Source: a virus
Direction: 5' to 3' (one strand)
IMG/VR virus record: IMGVR_UViG_3300022934_000161
Coordinates: 1 to 25,514 of that record
DNA length: 25,514 nucleotides
The position numbers and the translations under genes were made by a program. Positions 2,695 through 21,943 of the stretch are shown one piece after another. Every line of letters starts with the position of its first letter. Position 1 is the first letter of the stretch. A model generated the notes under the pieces. That model worked only from the letters and a program-made list of their open reading frames with translations, was not told the DNA's origin and did not search any database.

Positions 2695-3468
2695 TTAAGG
2701 CAAAAAGCCCATTTGACAGCGGCAGTTGATAACCTCACCCGGTGGCTTACCTGCCTCGGATGGTCGCATTAGCCCATTGCTGAACGCTTCGCCGATGGGT
2801 CTTTCCTCACCGTCGAGTTCTCGGTGGTTGGCATCGCCCTCGCGAGGCTTCTTCCTCGGGTCTGGTCGCACCCTCTGGTCGTTTGCGGTTATCCAAAACT
2901 TGCGAGTCATGCCTGCGGCGGTGGCGGCTTCCATCGCCCCGTAGTTGGCGGCGGCGTTCATTTCCGTTTGGGCAATCCGAAGGGCGCGGTTTCTTGATAG
3001 TTCGCCCCATCGATCCCTCATCAGTAATGCAATCTCATCTGTACCTAAACCGAGTTCGACAGCCTGCTGTGTTGCCGATGTGACCGTAGCCCGCACCCAC
3101 TCCTTGGTGTAGTTGTCGATCAGGCGGATCTGCTCGCCGCCCCTTTGCGCAAGGTACTCATCCACGTTGTCCTCCCATGAAGTGTATTGCTCGTCGGTGA
3201 ACTCCTTTCGGCTTGCGTCGATGGCGTTGTAGACCTTGCCTGTGATCGTCAGCGCGGCGTTCTTCCAAGCATCCTGATATACCTCGGTGATCGGCTCAGA
3301 GTCAATGGCTGCGTCGATGTTGCTGTCGTTTCGGACCGCCCGAGCAGCAGCGTCGATCTGCTTCGTGATTGCCCGTTCAATATCCTCAACAAAGGAATCA
3401 ACCTCCTTGTCGATAAGGCGCTCCATCGCTTCTGCGTGTTCACGCCATCCCGCCCGTGACCGAGCCAA
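2695..3468 (-). CDS. MuF / SPP1 gp7-like head morphogenesis protein, possibly a portal fusion by -1 frameshift
   Basis: This is a minor head protein of the Phage_Mu_F family, which sits near the portal and helps head assembly or DNA ejection. The C-terminal third carries the family pattern: AQTEMNAAANYG, then W-T-A-N-D-RVR, NHRELDGEERPIGEAF, NGLMRP and a final GEVINCRCQMGF. The N-terminal half is helical. The start is unclear. The frame has no ATG before residue 15 (ATG 3426), TTG 3468 has no SD, and no ATG or GTG exists between 3468 and the upstream in-frame TGA. The frame is open up to the portal stop, where the heptamer GGGTTTT (3522-3528) would allow a -1 shift and add 18 residues, giving 275 aa after the shift. 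See the frameshift entry. Independent starts at TTG 3468 or ATG 3426 remain possible. Confidence 0.85.
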   Translation of the reverse strand: MARSRAGWREHAEAMERLIDKEVDSFVEDIERAITKQIDAAARAVRNDSNIDAAIDSEPITEVYQDAWKNAALTITGKVYNAIDASRKEFTDEQYTSWEDNVDEYLAQRGGEQIRLIDNYTKEWVRATVTSATQQAVELGLGTDEIALLMRDRWGELSRNRALRIAQTEMNAAANYGAMEAATAAGMTRKFWITANDQRVRPDPRKKPREGDANHRELDGEERPIGEAFSNGLMRPSEAGKPPGEVINCRCQMGFLP

Positions 3469-3518
3469 CGGGTTGAGTGCCTTTGTGCCTTCCGGTTCGG
3501 CTTCGCTCCGGTCGGCTT

Positions 3519-4922
3519 CTAAAAACCCACGAAGGGCGGTCGGAACACCTCGTCGAGGTCTGCGCCTGCTGCCAAACGCTCGCGGATAATATCAGCCTCG
3601 TAATCAGCCAGAGCGTCAGGCGTGAACTTAACGTCGCGACCCTTGCGGTTGATCTTGGTGCGCCACCTCTGGATGTCGAGGTTCTTGGTGTCAGATACGG
3701 TATCAGCCGAGCGGACTTCCTGTGGCTGCTCTGCCACTACGTCCTGCCCCTGAATCGGCTCGTACCCGAGCAACTCGCGCCCCTCGTTTACGGACAGCAC
3801 CGGACCGCCTACGGCAAGAGCGATTGCCTGCGCTTTCTCCAGTTCGCTCTGCTGCATGACCTCGGTCTTGTGCGGCTCAAACTGCAAGTGGTAGCCGAGC
3901 GGCATCAGCAGTTGTTGGTTGATAGCATGGGCGAGTAGACGCGCCTGTGGTACAACCGTGTTTGCCATGAACGCCAACTGGTCGCTCTTGGCTGTGGCGT
4001 AGTTGGCGGCGTTAGACATGACGAGTGAGTGCGGAACGCCAAGCGTCGAGGCGATGGCTTCCCTTGCGTCTCGGGTGATCACATCGCTGTGCAAGTCGGA
4101 CAGGTCGGATCCTACCTCCTGCGCTGACAGCCCCTGCATCACCATCGGGTCATCGGGTGTGGGCTTAGTGCCGAGGATGTTGCGGCGTACCCACCGCTGC
4201 CACCGCTTGACCGTCAACTCGTCCGGCTGACGTGCGTCCTTGTCGGCAACCCAGACAGTCTTTTTGACCAGTCCTGATCGCAACTGACCACTCGTGTACT
4301 CAGCGAGGTCATGTAGGATCTGGCTGTGCATATTTGCCGAGCGAGCATCTGCCGACCCCGGTCCCTGCTCTACGAAGGGCGAAGGTTGAAACGTGCCGAG
4401 GACTCTTGAGCGTGGAACCTGAAATTTACGCTCGTTGGCTGAGCGCTCGTAATAACGGAAATTGCCACGCTCGTCTGGTCCGTACTTACCATCTTTGAAG
4501 CAGGGCTTGATGCTTGTCGGGTTAATCCACGACAGACCGTCCGCTTTGGTGATGATCCCGTCCTTGTTGAACGCGCCTTCCTTCATGGCGTATGCAGCAC
4601 CAACGAGAGCGAGCGATGCTTCCGCTCGGTACAAGTAGTCGAACAGGTCGAGCCACGCTAGTTCTTCGGGCGCTTCTTCGCCTGCCTTCCAGACCACGTT
4701 TGTCATGTCACCCTTGTGAACGACAAAGGGCAAGGCTGCAATCGCCTTTGCCCTAACGTCTACGCACCGCCGCGTCCAACCTTCGTCTGTCCATGCTACC
4801 GCCGGGGACATCTTGGCTACGTGTTCGTGACCATGCAGGTTGAAGATGTTGAGCCATTCGGGGTCGTTAAGGCTTACGCCTTTCGTTGACGATCCGAGTA
4901 CATAAAAATCGGGCTTTGGCAT
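3519..4922 (-). CDS. Portal protein (HK97-type)
   Basis: The 467-aa portal forms the dodecameric ring at the capsid vertex through which DNA enters and leaves. The N-terminal part has WTDEGWTRRCVDVRAKAIAA, typical of portal clip and wing domains. The C-terminal third has ASTLGVPHSLVMSNAANYAT and the helix LAFMANTVVPQARLLAHAIN, the family signature of a loop followed by a long helix. ATG 4922 is preferred over ATG 4937: it overlaps the TAA of the terminase (TAATG) and has GGGGAG seven bases upstream. It lies between the terminase and MuF genes, the usual order. The C-terminus (FRPPFVGF) ends on a slippery heptamer, so part of the ribosomes may continue into the MuF frame. Confidence 0.93.
   Translation of the reverse strand: MPKPDFYVLGSSTKGVSLNDPEWLNIFNLHGHEHVAKMSPAVAWTDEGWTRRCVDVRAKAIAALPFVVHKGDMTNVVWKAGEEAPEELAWLDLFDYLYRAEASLALVGAAYAMKEGAFNKDGIITKADGLSWINPTSIKPCFKDGKYGPDERGNFRYYERSANERKFQVPRSRVLGTFQPSPFVEQGPGSADARSANMHSQILHDLAEYTSGQLRSGLVKKTVWVADKDARQPDELTVKRWQRWVRRNILGTKPTPDDPMVMQGLSAQEVGSDLSDLHSDVITRDAREAIASTLGVPHSLVMSNAANYATAKSDQLAFMANTVVPQARLLAHAINQQLLMPLGYHLQFEPHKTEVMQQSELEKAQAIALAVGGPVLSVNEGRELLGYEPIQGQDVVAEQPQEVRSADTVSDTKNLDIQRWRTKINRKGRDVKFTPDALADYEADIIRERLAAGADLDEVFRPPFVGF
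3522..3528 (-). promoter_or_regulatory. Candidate -1 frameshift site between portal and MuF protein
   Basis: On the minus strand the portal ends GTG GGT TTT TAG. This contains G_GGT_TTT, a heptamer of the X_XXY_YYZ type in the correct phase, directly before the stop. A -1 slip re-reads it as GGG TTT and continues TTA GAA GCC into the MuF frame, which is open all the way. About five bases after the heptamer, GCC, CCGG, CCGG and GGC (3485-3515) can pair into an interrupted stem. The product would be 467 + 275 = 742 aa. The alternative is coupled or independent re-initiation for the MuF gene. Confidence 0.5.
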
Positions 4923-6079
4923 TACCAGACTCCCCAAGTGTTAGTTGCGCCTTTCAGGTGCGTATAGATGGCATACCGCATGGCATCAACGGCGTGGTCG
5001 TGCCGCTTTAGAGGAACGTCCTTTAGTTCGCCAGACTTGCGGTCCTCGTCCCATCGGTATTCCCGTAATTCGTTCTGTAAGTTTTGCGACCCTGCGTGGA
5101 CGTTGATGTTATAACGTTTAACAAAGTCGATCCCATCTTTTACGCTCTTGTCGGCTTTATACGCCTGCAATCCTTCTCGGATCAATTCCTCGATCCGGTC
5201 CGGTTCGGCTGCATCGCAGTAAATTGGCAGGTTTTTATTGCTGACCGCTTTCTTTAACTCGGCAATCAGATCAGAGTTTGTTAGACCGCTCTGATAAATA
5301 ACTTCCCGCACGTAGATGTCGGGATCGGTCACGGTCACGGCTACCACGGCAGATGGGCTGTTGTACCCGAAGTCGATGCCGTAAAAGTCCGGCTCGCGGT
5401 GTTCGTTGTACGTTTTCCACTCTGGAAAGATAACACCCTTGAGCGCCTCGCCCCATTCTCCGCGCTCGTATATGGCTCTCAGATCCTCTGGAAGCGACTT
5501 GAGAACGTCGATGTACTGCTTGTCAAGGAAGGCGTTGTCGCGCCACGTGGTCCGCAGTACGAAGATGTCTGGGTTCTCGTCGAGCCACCGCCGGACCCAG
5601 AGACGGGAATCGGTCGGGTTGAGGGTCAGCGTCACCTGCTTGTATGTTGGCACATCGCCACGCAATCGGAGGTCCACTTGCCGAAAGGCATCCTCCTTGA
5701 CCTCGCTTGCTTCCTCGATCCAGACGGACGTTATGCCTGCGATGGACTTCAGTTTCTCTGGGTCATCCAGTCCGGCGTGAATGATCTGTGCTCCATTCGG
5801 AAAGGTGATCGACAGGTCGGAGCGGTTGGCTGTTACCTCTACGCCGAACGATGACGCCACCTCGATCAGCAGCCGGAACGTGGACTCGCGGCAGGTGCGG
5901 TATACGTTACGGATTACCAGTATTCGCTCCCGCTTGTTCTGGATGCATCGGTAGACAAGTTTTTGTGCTACCGTGTAGGACTTACCAGACCCCGCCCCGC
6001 CAAACAGGACCGCATACCTGTCCTGACTTCTAATATAGCCAGAGTAGCGGCTGTTGTACTGAATCTGATCGCCAGACAT
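4922..6079 (-). CDS. terL: Terminase large subunit (PBSX-like ATPase/nuclease)
   Basis: This is the 385-aa DNA packaging motor, with an N-terminal ATPase and a C-terminal RNase H-like nuclease. Counting from ATG 6079, Walker A is GGAGSGKS (27-34), Walker B with its catalytic Glu is SVWIEEAS (118-125), and the coupling motif is TLTLNP (150-155). Nuclease acidic residues lie in YGIDFGYNS (D236), IYCDAAEPDR (D289) and KRHDHAVDAMRYA (D361 and D365). The length is near the short end for the family but both domains look complete. ATG 6079 is chosen because it forms TGATG with the TerS stop; an in-frame TTG at 6082 is less likely. The portal gene overlaps its stop. The sequence cannot show whether packaging is headful (pac) or site-specific (cos). 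Confidence 0.95.
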   Translation of the reverse strand: MSGDQIQYNSRYSGYIRSQDRYAVLFGGAGSGKSYTVAQKLVYRCIQNKRERILVIRNVYRTCRESTFRLLIEVASSFGVEVTANRSDLSITFPNGAQIIHAGLDDPEKLKSIAGITSVWIEEASEVKEDAFRQVDLRLRGDVPTYKQVTLTLNPTDSRLWVRRWLDENPDIFVLRTTWRDNAFLDKQYIDVLKSLPEDLRAIYERGEWGEALKGVIFPEWKTYNEHREPDFYGIDFGYNSPSAVVAVTVTDPDIYVREVIYQSGLTNSDLIAELKKAVSNKNLPIYCDAAEPDRIEELIREGLQAYKADKSVKDGIDFVKRYNINVHAGSQNLQNELREYRWDEDRKSGELKDVPLKRHDHAVDAMRYAIYTHLKGATNTWGVW

Positions 6080-13532: not shown

Positions 13533-14313
13533 CCAAGTATAGTGTTTTGTCTGATATAGAAAGACCACGCGATGCCGCGTTCTGTGCGCTGCTTCCAGAG
13601 AATCGATCAGCAACAGCCTCAAGCCATGCCATCGTGTGTGCGTGGGTGGGCGCTTTTCCTTCACGCAATAGCGCATCCTCCTGTTGCAGCAGGGATGACA
13701 CCTCGGCTTGTGCTACCGCGCCGTTAATACCAATGTTGAACAAGTAGATCAGGTTGCCTTCGTCGATAACACCGCCGCGAGCGCGAGCAGCGTGTAATGC
13801 TTGCGAGAAGGCAGTCATTATGTGATGCCTCTCCTGATCTTTTTCGTAGTCCTCCTCGGTTAGATACTCAACTCCCATGCTTTCGAGAACGCTGTCATAC
13901 TGCGCGATTAGGTACGCGAGTTTTCGTATTGCGCCCCGCGCCGCTGCCTCCAGATTCGATAGGTGTATTGTAATTTCGTCTATGTCGATCTGAAGCACCT
14001 CTGCCTTGTAACCTTTTGCCCCTTCAAGCAGGCGCTGCTTTCTGTCGCGCTTGGCTCGCTTGCGGCGCACCTTGATTGATGCTTCCTCCAATGCGTGTCT
14101 TGTCCTCTGAATTGATGCGAGTAGGTGCTTTAGCGTTCCGGTCTGCGTCAAGTCTACAACGTCGAGCGTTGTGGTCTTATACTGAGACGAGGATTTATTA
14201 AAGACTTCGGACGCAGCAACGGTGGCAGGCAATCTCTTCTCGATGCGCTCAATAGCGCCGATAACGTTTGCCGCCTCGGGCAATGTGCTAAGCAAGGCAA
14301 TGTCAGTATTCAC
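13525..14313 (-). CDS. Conserved phage protein of unknown role, GTG start
   Basis: This 262-aa protein starts at GTG 14313, which has GGAGG six bases upstream (a strong SD) and forms GTGA with the stop of the previous gene; the frame's TTG at 14340 is not needed. It is helical throughout, with a basic coiled coil (VRRKRAKRDRKQRLLEGAKG) and a conserved-looking core: QYDSVLESMGVEYLTEEDYE, then HHIMTAFSQALHAARARGGV and GNLIYLFNIGINGAVAQAEV. I recall similar cores in uncultured marine phages without a named function. Its place between fibre genes suggests a structural or assembly role in the tail. Confidence 0.65.
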   Translation of the reverse strand: MNTDIALLSTLPEAANVIGAIERIEKRLPATVAASEVFNKSSSQYKTTTLDVVDLTQTGTLKHLLASIQRTRHALEEASIKVRRKRAKRDRKQRLLEGAKGYKAEVLQIDIDEITIHLSNLEAAARGAIRKLAYLIAQYDSVLESMGVEYLTEEDYEKDQERHHIMTAFSQALHAARARGGVIDEGNLIYLFNIGINGAVAQAEVSSLLQQEDALLREGKAPTHAHTMAWLEAVADRFSGSSAQNAASRGLSISDKTLYLDV

Positions 14314-15227
14314 GAAAGCCCTCCATGAGCGTCTGAGCAACCCGCAGGAGATATCCTTGCTTGCGTTAAGTCACCGAAGTCGGTGGCGTTACCCGTCGAA
14401 TCAATGGTAACGTAGTCAATAGTATTTGTAACGATTCCGGTATATCCACCGCCAAATACTCCTCTTGTTGATGACGAGCAAGCCGCATTAGTTGCTACTG
14501 AAGCGCTTAAATCACCAAAGTCTGTGGCGTTACCTGTCGATGCAATAGTAATGTAGTCAATCGTATTGACAGTACTATAAGAACCATTTGTGGTATCCCC
14601 ACCGCCGAACAATCCGCGCGTTGATGACGAGCAACTTGATAATCTATTCCTCGCTTGCGTTAGATCACCAAAGTCGGTGGCATTACCAGTAGATGCAATA
14701 GTGACGTATTGAATAACGTTTTGACTCATGAAAGTATATCCACCGCCAAATATGCCTCGTGTTGGTGATGAGCAAGCAGAAAGATAACTTGTGCCTCCCG
14801 GCCATAATAAATCACCAAAGTCGGTGGCGTTGCCAGTAGAGGCGATGGTAATATAATCTATGTAGTTGCCGTTCGACCCCGTAAAAATGCCGCGTGTAGA
14901 GGACGAGCAACCTGCCATGCCTTGTCCATCAAAGTTAAGATCACCAAAATCTGTCGCATTTCCCGGTGATGCAATAGTAACATAGTCTATCGTGCGATAA
15001 TCGCTTAACCCACCAGCCCACACACCTCGCGTAGATGATGAGCAAGCACCCAATCCATACCGCGCAGCAGTTAAGTCACCGAAGTCGGTGGCGTTACCCG
15101 TTGATGCAATAGTAATGTAGTCAATAGTATTCCGGTCAACACCGGCATCAGTCCCACCGCCAAACAACCCACGACCGGCATCGCCGCCTGCCGCCCTTCT
15201 GAACGCTAACATTGCCGGTGTAAACAT
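14310..15227 (-). CDS. Six-repeat beta-propeller-like tail protein
   Basis: This 305-aa protein is almost entirely made of six repeats of 43-51 residues. Each has the core TIDYITIASTGNATDFGDL, then a variable stretch, CSSSTRG and an FGGG turn. TGNATDFGDL begins near residues 43, 88, 131, 180, 231 and 278. The first unit opens with RGLFGGG and the last ends CSDAHGGL, so the chain can close like a beta propeller. The part that varies lies between DL and CSSS and at the FGGG loop, as expected for exposed loops. It is placed among fibre genes and is likely an adhesin or receptor-binding part of the tail. A six-bladed propeller is inferred from the count. Confidence 0.8.
   Translation of the reverse strand: MFTPAMLAFRRAAGGDAGRGLFGGGTDAGVDRNTIDYITIASTGNATDFGDLTAARYGLGACSSSTRGVWAGGLSDYRTIDYVTIASPGNATDFGDLNFDGQGMAGCSSSTRGIFTGSNGNYIDYITIASTGNATDFGDLLWPGGTSYLSACSSPTRGIFGGGYTFMSQNVIQYVTIASTGNATDFGDLTQARNRLSSCSSSTRGLFGGGDTTNGSYSTVNTIDYITIASTGNATDFGDLSASVATNAACSSSTRGVFGGGYTGIVTNTIDYVTIDSTGNATDFGDLTQARISPAGCSDAHGGLS
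14369..15101 (-). repeat. DNA-level repeats within the propeller gene
   Basis: The repeat TCACCAAAGTCGGTGGC, with one to three changes, occurs six times on the plus strand (near 14371, 14513, 14666, 14813, 14942 and 15076), about 130-155 bases apart. It codes for the NATDFGD core of each unit. Such repeats allow recombination that could add or drop units. Confidence 0.85.
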
Positions 15228-19241: not shown

Positions 19242-21943
19242 TAGCGGTTGGTCCCGTAGATCTCCAATTCCTGTGACCAGTAAGGCATCGTTGCGGTGGC
19301 GATGGTCTGACCGTCAAGGTTGACGTTAATAGTCTGACCTCCTGTGGTCATGCCCATGCTGCCCATCACGCCGGATGTGTTAGCCGATCCACCTGTGCCC
19401 ATATATCCCTGCAAGCCAGACAACCATGTTGGTGTACCCGCTCCATTCATGCTGCCACCTCCGGCAGTCCCAGATAGCCAAGACAGATCGACACCACCCA
19501 TCAGGTTTGATGCAATTCTAGCGTAACCGCCCGATGCGATTTGCTGCTGTATCCACTCGTCGCGAGTTATTCCCATCGAAACCCACGGAGTCTCAGAACC
19601 ACCAAAACCTGCGAGCCTGTAAATGCTATTTCCAAGCACGTAAGCCAGAGCAAGTTGGGTTGCAGCAGGTATACCCGCCAATATACCCGCGCCGCCTCCT
19701 GCACCTGCTGCTCCCGCACCTGCTGTCGTAAGGTCTGGAACCCCAGTTACGGTTGGACCCATCGTTCCCGGTCCAATAGCCCCAATTGTAGCGCCAACGT
19801 TTTGAATCTGTTGTTGAGCAGAAAGACCCGAAACAATATCCCAGATAGATGATCCGATTTTTATAAACAGGTCAAGAGTTTTGCCCCATATTTCCAACTT
19901 AAAGAGTTCGATCAGAGACGAAAACCCATTAACAACGGTAGCAATATCAAACGCAAGATTAGCCGTGTTCGAAACGAATCGCCCAAACGGTGTATCAGCA
20001 CCGATACCCAATGTGTCCAATGCGTCACGGACGTCTCGCGTATACCGCGCCACATTAAAAGCATCGCTCTTTGCATCTGATAAGTTCTCAGTAAAAATTT
20101 TAAAGTGATGCCGGAAAGAATCCATACGCGAGACTTCATCCTCGGATGGCGCAATAGCACGTACAGCCTCGTTGAGTGTTTTGGGATCAACCGCAATCTT
20201 AAATAACCCATCAACCGAGTTTTTTAGCCCGTCGATGTCCTCTGCCGTATTCACTACTGTGTTGCTTACGGAATCCGAATCATTCTGCAAGGGATCTGCA
20301 ATATCCGTTGCAAACGAGTCAAAACCCGACACCGCTCTATCAATAACCCTTTTAACCTTATCTGCAAATGTCTCCCCATCCTTACCAACTACGGCTTCCG
20401 CTGCGTCCTTTGCTATGTCTGGATCAATGCTTGCATCAATGTCGCTTTTCATCGACGCAAAAAAAGCGAGCATCGCATCGATGTTGCTTTTAGGTATATC
20501 CTTTAAAGCCTGAAATGCCTGATCAAACTTGCCACCTGCCGCAAGCGTTGTTGCCTTCAAAGCGCCTGCTATCTGTTCAATAGTGGTGTTAATGGTGGCA
20601 GCAAGAAGGGCAATAGTTGCTCCAACCGAATTGACAAGGTTAAGGGTGCCACTTACGAAAAGCGTCTCAAGTGTACCATTTTCGCCAATAAACAACTTGG
20701 TTACGTCCTCAGTAGCCTGCCATGCTAACCTAAAGACATCGGCAAGTGTGCCTAAAAGAGTGCCAACATTTGTGATCAGCGTTGTGAACGTTTCTGTGAG
20801 TGTTGTTTTTACCGCTTCTCCATTTGCAGACCACCATCCAACAATCACTCCATAGGTTTCGGCAATAGTCTCTTTCAGCCCCTCCCATATAGGAGAAAAC
20901 GAGTTTTTTATTTGATCTCCAAACGTTTTGAATGCTGCTTGTACAGAGTCGGAGCCACGAGTTAAGCCCACAAATATCGCCGCTACTGCTGCCAAACCTG
21001 CCACGTAAGGATTAAACAATCCCATCGTCAGCGTAACGGCTCGCATGATAGCGGAGAATCCAGAAGCCACTCCGCCGAGCGAAAACACCAACGGACCCGC
21101 CGCCGCCGCAACGCCTGCGAGGATGATGCCGAGTTTCTTTGTCTCTGGATTTAGGTTCTGGACAAAATCGACCATTCCCTGAAGCCGACTCACCAGTTCG
21201 CTTGCATAAGGCAGGAGGAGTTCACCAATGGTTACTCCGAGATCATACGTGGCATTTCTCAGTCTTTGAAACTGATTGGCGAAAGAATCCGATGTGCGGA
21301 TAGCATCGCCCTGTGCATCGGTGGTGCCTGCCATAAGCAGGTTGAGACGCGCCTGTACCTTTGCCTGATTTAGTTGTGCGCCCGTCAGTTTATCTGCGCC
21401 CATTCGCATCAACTCCTGCTTGAGCGATGCCTCGTTGATTACTACGCCAAAGGCAAGAGCGTTCTCGTGCGAACCGACAAGCGTACCACGTAGACGGGCA
21501 AGAGCCTCGTCCATCGGCATATTGTTAAAGGAGCCAAGATCAACCGCGAGTTTGGCAACCTGTACCGATAAATCACCCGCCTGCTGCTCTGTATATCCAA
21601 GCGGCTTAAATATATCGCCAAGTTGCCCAGCCATCCCCTGCAACTCGTAGCGGCTCCTTCCAGATGCGCGAGCAAAAGCGTCGAGTTGCTTCGTTACATC
21701 GCCGCCCACCGTCTTGAATACGGTGTTGAACTTTGACTGCATTTCCTCGGCATCCGAGGCGGCTTTTACGGCAGCCGCGCCAATGCCAAGAAGCGGAAGC
21801 GTAACCGCTGTCGATAACTGACGTCCGGTGTTGCGAAGATTAGACCCAACCTGTTTAAGTTGGTTTTCTAACTTCGCCATGCCCTGTTGGAACGACTTGA
21901 TGTCTGCCCCAATCCGAACGTCAAGTTGTGCGACCGTAGCCAT
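19241..21943 (-). CDS. Tail tape measure protein
   Basis: This 900-aa protein is the longest in the window and follows the G/GT chaperones. It starts with a coiled-coil region (LDVRIGADIKSFQQGMAKLE, then NQLKQVGSNLRNTGRQLSTA) and VTLPLLGIGAAAVKAASDAEEM, the usual start of phage tape measures of the TP901 core type. A strongly hydrophobic region lies at about 270-325 (LGIILAGVAAAAGPLVFSLG), as in proteins that insert in the host membrane at ejection. The end is Gly-rich with a final NVDGQTI-like beta segment. At about 0.15 nm per residue the tail would be near 135 nm long. No lytic domain (SLT or peptidase) is seen. Confidence 0.93.
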   Translation of the reverse strand: MATVAQLDVRIGADIKSFQQGMAKLENQLKQVGSNLRNTGRQLSTAVTLPLLGIGAAAVKAASDAEEMQSKFNTVFKTVGGDVTKQLDAFARASGRSRYELQGMAGQLGDIFKPLGYTEQQAGDLSVQVAKLAVDLGSFNNMPMDEALARLRGTLVGSHENALAFGVVINEASLKQELMRMGADKLTGAQLNQAKVQARLNLLMAGTTDAQGDAIRTSDSFANQFQRLRNATYDLGVTIGELLLPYASELVSRLQGMVDFVQNLNPETKKLGIILAGVAAAAGPLVFSLGGVASGFSAIMRAVTLTMGLFNPYVAGLAAVAAIFVGLTRGSDSVQAAFKTFGDQIKNSFSPIWEGLKETIAETYGVIVGWWSANGEAVKTTLTETFTTLITNVGTLLGTLADVFRLAWQATEDVTKLFIGENGTLETLFVSGTLNLVNSVGATIALLAATINTTIEQIAGALKATTLAAGGKFDQAFQALKDIPKSNIDAMLAFFASMKSDIDASIDPDIAKDAAEAVVGKDGETFADKVKRVIDRAVSGFDSFATDIADPLQNDSDSVSNTVVNTAEDIDGLKNSVDGLFKIAVDPKTLNEAVRAIAPSEDEVSRMDSFRHHFKIFTENLSDAKSDAFNVARYTRDVRDALDTLGIGADTPFGRFVSNTANLAFDIATVVNGFSSLIELFKLEIWGKTLDLFIKIGSSIWDIVSGLSAQQQIQNVGATIGAIGPGTMGPTVTGVPDLTTAGAGAAGAGGGAGILAGIPAATQLALAYVLGNSIYRLAGFGGSETPWVSMGITRDEWIQQQIASGGYARIASNLMGGVDLSWLSGTAGGGSMNGAGTPTWLSGLQGYMGTGGSANTSGVMGSMGMTTGGQTINVNLDGQTIATATMPYWSQELEIYGTNR

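Follow-up and report, generated by a model that had tools for sequence, protein, structure and literature searches.

A probable programmed -1 ribosomal frameshift joining the portal and MuF reading frames in a family of uncultured phages

Introduction

In the virus contig IMGVR_UViG_3300022934_000161, the portal frame ends in a slippery heptamer that abuts its stop codon, and the MuF gene that follows is open in the -1 frame across this point. This arrangement raises the question of how the MuF domain is translated. An initial annotation, made from the DNA sequence alone, had proposed that a portal-MuF fusion is produced by programmed -1 frameshifting. We followed up this proposal in the window (the whole stretch of DNA that was analyzed, 25,514 nt) and in related contigs. 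The proposal was supported by the conservation of the site and of its phase, by selection on the linker, by a covarying hairpin, and by direct fusions of the same two domains in distant relatives.

Results

The late genes of the window are encoded on the minus strand and comprise the following features.

6438-6079, minus strand: small ORF at the place of TerS
6082-4922, minus strand: TerL
3519..4937, minus strand: portal gene, 0 frame, starting at TTG 4937 or, more likely, at ATG 4922
3522..3528, minus strand: slippery heptamer G_GGT_TTT in the portal phase; GG(G/A)TTTT in 35/35 related contigs
3519..3521, minus strand: portal stop TAG, abutting the heptamer; TGA in L187
3487..3516, minus strand: hairpin GCC.GA.CCGG / CCGG.AA.GGC, putative stimulator, 5 nt past the heptamer
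3479..3483, minus strand: conserved AAGGC, invariant in all aligned sequences
2695..3528, minus strand: -1 frame with the linker GFLEADR... and the MuF (SPP1 gp7-type) domain

The portal and MuF ORFs matched the Pfam families Phage_portal PF04860 (E 2.6e-25) and Phage_Mu_F PF04233 (E 1.9e-12), respectively, and both matched PHROG 2662, the former at positions 34-420 (E 5e-23) and the latter at positions 473-704 (E 4e-28). The Shine-Dalgarno (SD) duplex at the portal ATG 4922 amounted to -8.0 kcal/mol. The portal frame terminates in GTG GGT TTT TAG on the minus strand; the in-phase G_GGT_TTT that had been placed directly before the stop was confirmed at 3528-3522, followed by the TAG at 3521-3519, and the MuF ORF is, as annotated, the -1 frame, which is open from 3591 to a stop at 2695. 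After a slip, this frame would read GGG TTT TTA GAA GCC GAC CGG ..., corresponding to GFLEADRSEAEPEGTKALNPLARSRAGWREHAEAMERL. The predicted fusion would be characterized by the junction-spanning peptide LAAGADLDEVFRPPFVGFLEADR, while the portal ending at the stop would carry the terminal peptide LAAGADLDEVFRPPFVGF (...PPFVGF). The fusion length of 742 aa that had been claimed holds for a portal start at ATG 4922, but a start at TTG 4937 would give 747 aa.

Among the 6880 codon positions of the genes in the window, 15 carry an in-phase X_XXY_YYZ heptamer and two carry GGGTTTT, the portal-end site included. Chance alone would seldom place such a heptamer directly before a stop codon while leaving the -1 frame open, and a chance origin of this site is ruled out because it is conserved across clades (see below). 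The second in-phase GGGTTTT, at 20327 (minus strand), is located inside a putative tape measure gene and showed no sign of a frameshift role. The tail assembly chaperone pair (22624-21921, minus strand) contains the classical heptamer GGGAAAG (22307-22301) near the end of its first ORF, with the second ORF reachable in the -1 frame, and thus offers a positive control for frameshifting within the phage's own genome. Elsewhere in the window (14310-15227, minus strand), a protein containing TIDYITIASTGNATDFGDL-type repeats matched PHROG families of unknown function and is possibly a tail or fiber protein.

Relatives were collected by portal and MuF searches of IMG/VR, followed by profile searches for further clades. 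All carriers of the -1 junction are uncultured phages; searches of isolate phages (DNA and protein) and of GTDB genomes returned no near relative. The close clade comprised 28 contigs that include the junction, with portals 82-98% identical to that of the window, and all 28 junctions read GG(G/A)TTTTTAG; this clade includes near-duplicates and represents 17 distinct junction regions. In the other clades, the junction reads GCG GAT TTT TAG in L116 (portal 50% and MuF 45% identical to the window's), GTG GGT TTT TAG in L173-L177 (portal 43% identical), and GCG GGT TTT TGA in L187 (portal 45% and MuF 38% identical). Thus, GG(G/A)TTTT plus a stop codon, with MuF in the -1 frame, was found in 35/35 further contigs that reach the portal end, across four clades; the stop is TAG in 34/35 and TGA in 1/35 (L187). 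The G_GAT_TTT variant is present in one sub-clade of the close clade (L020-L024 and L028) and in one other clade (L116), and G_GGT_TTT in the window and most relatives. The window's site conforms to an X_XXY_YYZ heptamer whose position and phase are kept in all 35 contigs, but its strict form is not invariant, and the conserved core is better written as GG(G/A)TTTT plus stop. The loss of the heptamer from close relatives, which would speak against frameshifting, was not observed; the heptamer was kept throughout.

Our survey of more distant portal/MuF loci revealed no GG(G/A)TTTTTAG ending outside the -1 family. A pattern scan for TTTTTAGANGCCGACCG additionally returned L082 and L091, which look like chance matches without a portal/MuF reading and were discarded. 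One member of the close set, L014 (contig 3300023173_001757, around 4417), is a recombinant with a portal 96% and a MuF only 36% identical to the window's; its changeover lies just past the linker, and the linker start, the phase, and the frameshift element are all kept. L116 and L122 belong to one contig (3300022183_000026, 34359 bp) in which MuF is split over both contig ends; a circular or circularly permuted genome is therefore probable, and it may be complete.

The stretch downstream of the heptamer displayed a second layer of constraint. Between sub-clades, synonymous divergence along the composite gene (789 columns) was lowest at the junction: it was 0.098 in the 20 codons that follow versus means of 0.43 for the portal and 0.46 for MuF, and the low stretch ended about 57 nt downstream. 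Within this stretch, a spacer of 4-5 nt separates the heptamer from a hairpin. The pairs CCGG/CCGG and GCC/GGC, pointed out initially, exist and form the minimum free energy (MFE) hairpin at 3516-3487 (-15.6 kcal/mol; z -4.46 against dinucleotide shuffles). RNAalifold gave the hairpin unprompted, with compensatory changes on 5/6 pairs, so that pairing is kept while the sequence changes. In the hairpin register, 90% of the cells were paired versus 10-40% in slid registers, and the covariation score was 0.344 versus 0.100, a value reached by 0/500 shuffles; on both measures, the hairpin register exceeded every shuffle and every slid register. These pair counts refer to alignment A4, from which L187 was left out because alignment A6, which includes it, misplaces its 3' arm. 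The MFE fold is the hairpin in all four clades: L116 has an 8-bp stem of a sequence other than the window's, L173 has a stem with one bulge and a lower stem register shifted by one nucleotide, and L187 has a longer version of the window's hairpin. Stability alone was unremarkable in L014, L017, and L173. The loop GCC (3501-3499) could furthermore pair with the GGC (3481-3479) of AAGGC to form a candidate 3-bp pseudoknot, for which the crossing loop in the window measures only 5 nt. Both the loop GCC and AAGGC are invariant, and the pseudoknot is without covariation support because its pairs never vary. An SD-like GAGG about 18 nt upstream was considered as a further stimulator and is not proposed because its codons vary synonymously.

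A start codon for MuF close to the junction is not conserved among the relatives. Past the junction, the window's MuF frame offers TTG 3468 (codon 19, counted from TTA) and then ATG 3426 (codon 33). The TTG is present in few relatives, and most relatives have no conserved ATG, GTG, or TTG near the portal end, within about 29 codons past the junction; the first such codon is an ATG located about 29-35 codons in. L187 is an exception, in which the slip codon TTG overlaps the stop (TTGA); in this contig alone, the TTG could allow reinitiation. The lack of an SD at TTG 3468, also noted initially, is roughly right (best anti-SD duplex, -3.2 kcal/mol), but it is a weak argument, as several other genes are no better; we dropped it as support for frameshifting because many of this phage's genes have weak SDs. 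Stronger evidence came from the 17 codons between the conserved RNA element and the first shared ATG. Among 14 distinct sequences, pN/pS was 0.26 in the -1 frame versus 1.8 and 2.0 in the other two frames, and 681 differences fell on third positions versus 191 on first and 146 on second positions; 0/500 column shuffles gave a pN/pS as low. Indels near the junction were multiples of three. Judged by these substitution patterns, the linker upstream of the first shared ATG is evolving as protein in the -1 frame, translated from the junction.

More distant portal/MuF loci showed other arrangements. The survey yielded 38 direct single-ORF fusions, and the remaining loci have separate genes, with the MuF start codon mostly at or before the portal stop. 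Profiles of the -1 composite and of the direct fusions aligned collinearly (Prob 100). The heptamer and its phase are kept in 35/35 contigs of the -1 family, and distant relatives replace them with a direct fusion. That portal-MuF fusions exist in some phages, as stated in the initial annotation, is exemplified by PHROG 2662, by Geobacillus phage GBK2 and Faecalibacterium phage Roos, both of which carry direct fusions, and by the published fused genes of Microbacterium phage clusters EA3, EA5, EA8, and EB (PMC7302621).

These data allow rival explanations to be weighed. MuF could be a separate gene that starts at TTG 3468 or ATG 3426 by coupled or internal initiation, the heptamer being incidental. 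Many other surveyed MuF families are indeed separate genes with ordinary starts, and nearly all members have the ATG near codon 33, from which some free MuF may be made by internal initiation. However, the TTG is not conserved, little SD is found at the ATG (-0.1 to -4.4 kcal/mol), selection in the -1 frame acts at the protein level on the codons upstream of it, and the heptamer and the covarying hairpin are both conserved; we regard this explanation as very improbable. Readthrough of the stop codon was rejected outright, since it would miss the MuF frame; in L116 and L173, frame 0 meets another stop no more than 15 codons further on.

Transcriptional slippage on the T5 run, rather than the ribosome, might also change the frame, as an added U leads into the -1 frame. 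The T5 is invariant, and the addition of a single T would lead to an identical protein. A run of five Ts is, however, short for efficient transcriptional slippage, and selection extends to the GG(G/A) before the Ts and to a hairpin at ribosomal spacing (4-5 nt), which leaves this explanation marginally less probable than a separate MuF gene. Lastly, the interrupted frame might reflect a sequencing error, a pseudogene, or a broken direct fusion, the last of which draws on the direct fusions in relatives. The -1 junction recurs in 35 contigs of four clades, however, and the sequences flanking it on either side are under purifying selection; this explanation is already refuted by conservation, and we assign it a negligible probability.

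Discussion

We conclude that a programmed -1 ribosomal frameshift very probably joins the portal to MuF, yielding as a minor product a fused portal-MuF protein of 742 or 747 aa; this reading is drawn from comparative sequence evidence. In the proposed mechanism, most ribosomes would terminate at the TAG and release the portal. The hairpin 5 nt downstream would pause ribosomes with tRNA-Gly on GGU and tRNA-Phe on UUU, and some of these would slip one base back, placing the tRNAs on GGG and UUU. G_GGU_UUU lets both tRNAs re-pair after such a one-base slip. The slipped ribosomes would continue with UUA GAA GCC ... to the MuF end, yielding the fusion.

The slippage rate is presumably a useful one, with a minority of the ring's subunits carrying MuF; at a frameshift rate of roughly 10%, a 12-subunit ring would receive one or two MuF copies. 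By analogy with SPP1 gp7, MuF may sit in the head and help infection. We lean, by a modest margin over even chances, toward a more specific model in which the frameshift rate sets deliberately mixed rings (e.g., 1-3 of 12 subunits with a covalently tethered MuF), so that a low copy number is delivered to the head without a separate binding step, and in which a compact pseudoknot between the loop GCC and AAGGC may act as the stimulator.

We found no report of a frameshift-made portal-MuF fusion in the open-access literature, although one published in a journal that requires a subscription may have escaped our search. Such a fusion would represent a third way of linking MuF to the portal, beside separate genes and direct fusion, and the sole one of the three that would give rings mixed by covalent fusion. 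The entry of a few MuF copies into the head thereby becomes a testable question. In practical terms, gene finders will assign a wrong MuF start in genomes of the -1 family.

The direct fusions (PHROG 2662) contain a portal and a MuF domain arranged as in the window, at a similar total length (mostly 650-750 aa). They form one uninterrupted ORF, with MuF on every portal subunit, whereas in the window a TAG separates the domains, which are joined only by a -1 shift; with a stop and a shift site between them, plain portal should therefore also be made. SPP1 encodes both functions, likewise with the portal (gp6) ahead of the MuF-type protein (gp7), but these are separately initiated and held together by binding, with no covalent fusion (PMC6316719). 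Through binding by the portal gp6, a few copies of gp7 enter the SPP1 procapsid, and among virions lacking gp7 only about 25% are infectious (PMC6316719).

Among known phage frameshifts, the major head protein of Lactobacillus phage A2 is described, in a citation within PMC5009743, as subject to a -1 frameshift. In both A2 and the window, frameshifting leads to a C-terminally extended head protein; it is the major head protein in A2 and the portal in the window, where the extension would be a whole MuF domain. Tail chaperones of the lambda G/GT type likewise use a -1 slip on X_XXY_YYZ to join two late ORFs, but they involve other genes and another heptamer; at the portal-MuF junction, the stop comes immediately after the heptamer, and a covarying hairpin lies downstream.

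In its architecture, the site resembles the polymerase sites of luteoviruses, dianthoviruses, and umbraviruses, and the portal-MuF junction would add a site of luteovirus/dianthovirus type to the known frameshifts in phage head genes. PEMV-2 uses GGAUUUU, and swapping it for the GGGUUUU of BYDV gave 112% of wild-type frameshifting; in BYDV and RCNMV, the stop directly follows the heptamer and the spacer is 5 nt (PMC4737148). Among motifs of heterogeneous composition, the R_RR.U_UU.Y group is noted in E. coli as unusually prone to shifting (PMC4066793). The plant virus sites and the portal-MuF site share the same two heptamers, an adjacent stop (BYDV and RCNMV), a spacer of about 5 nt, and a GC-rich stem. 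The former, however, belong to plant RNA viruses read by 80S ribosomes and have a large bulged stem and long-range pairing, and no relatedness is implied; the likeness is apparently a case of convergence.
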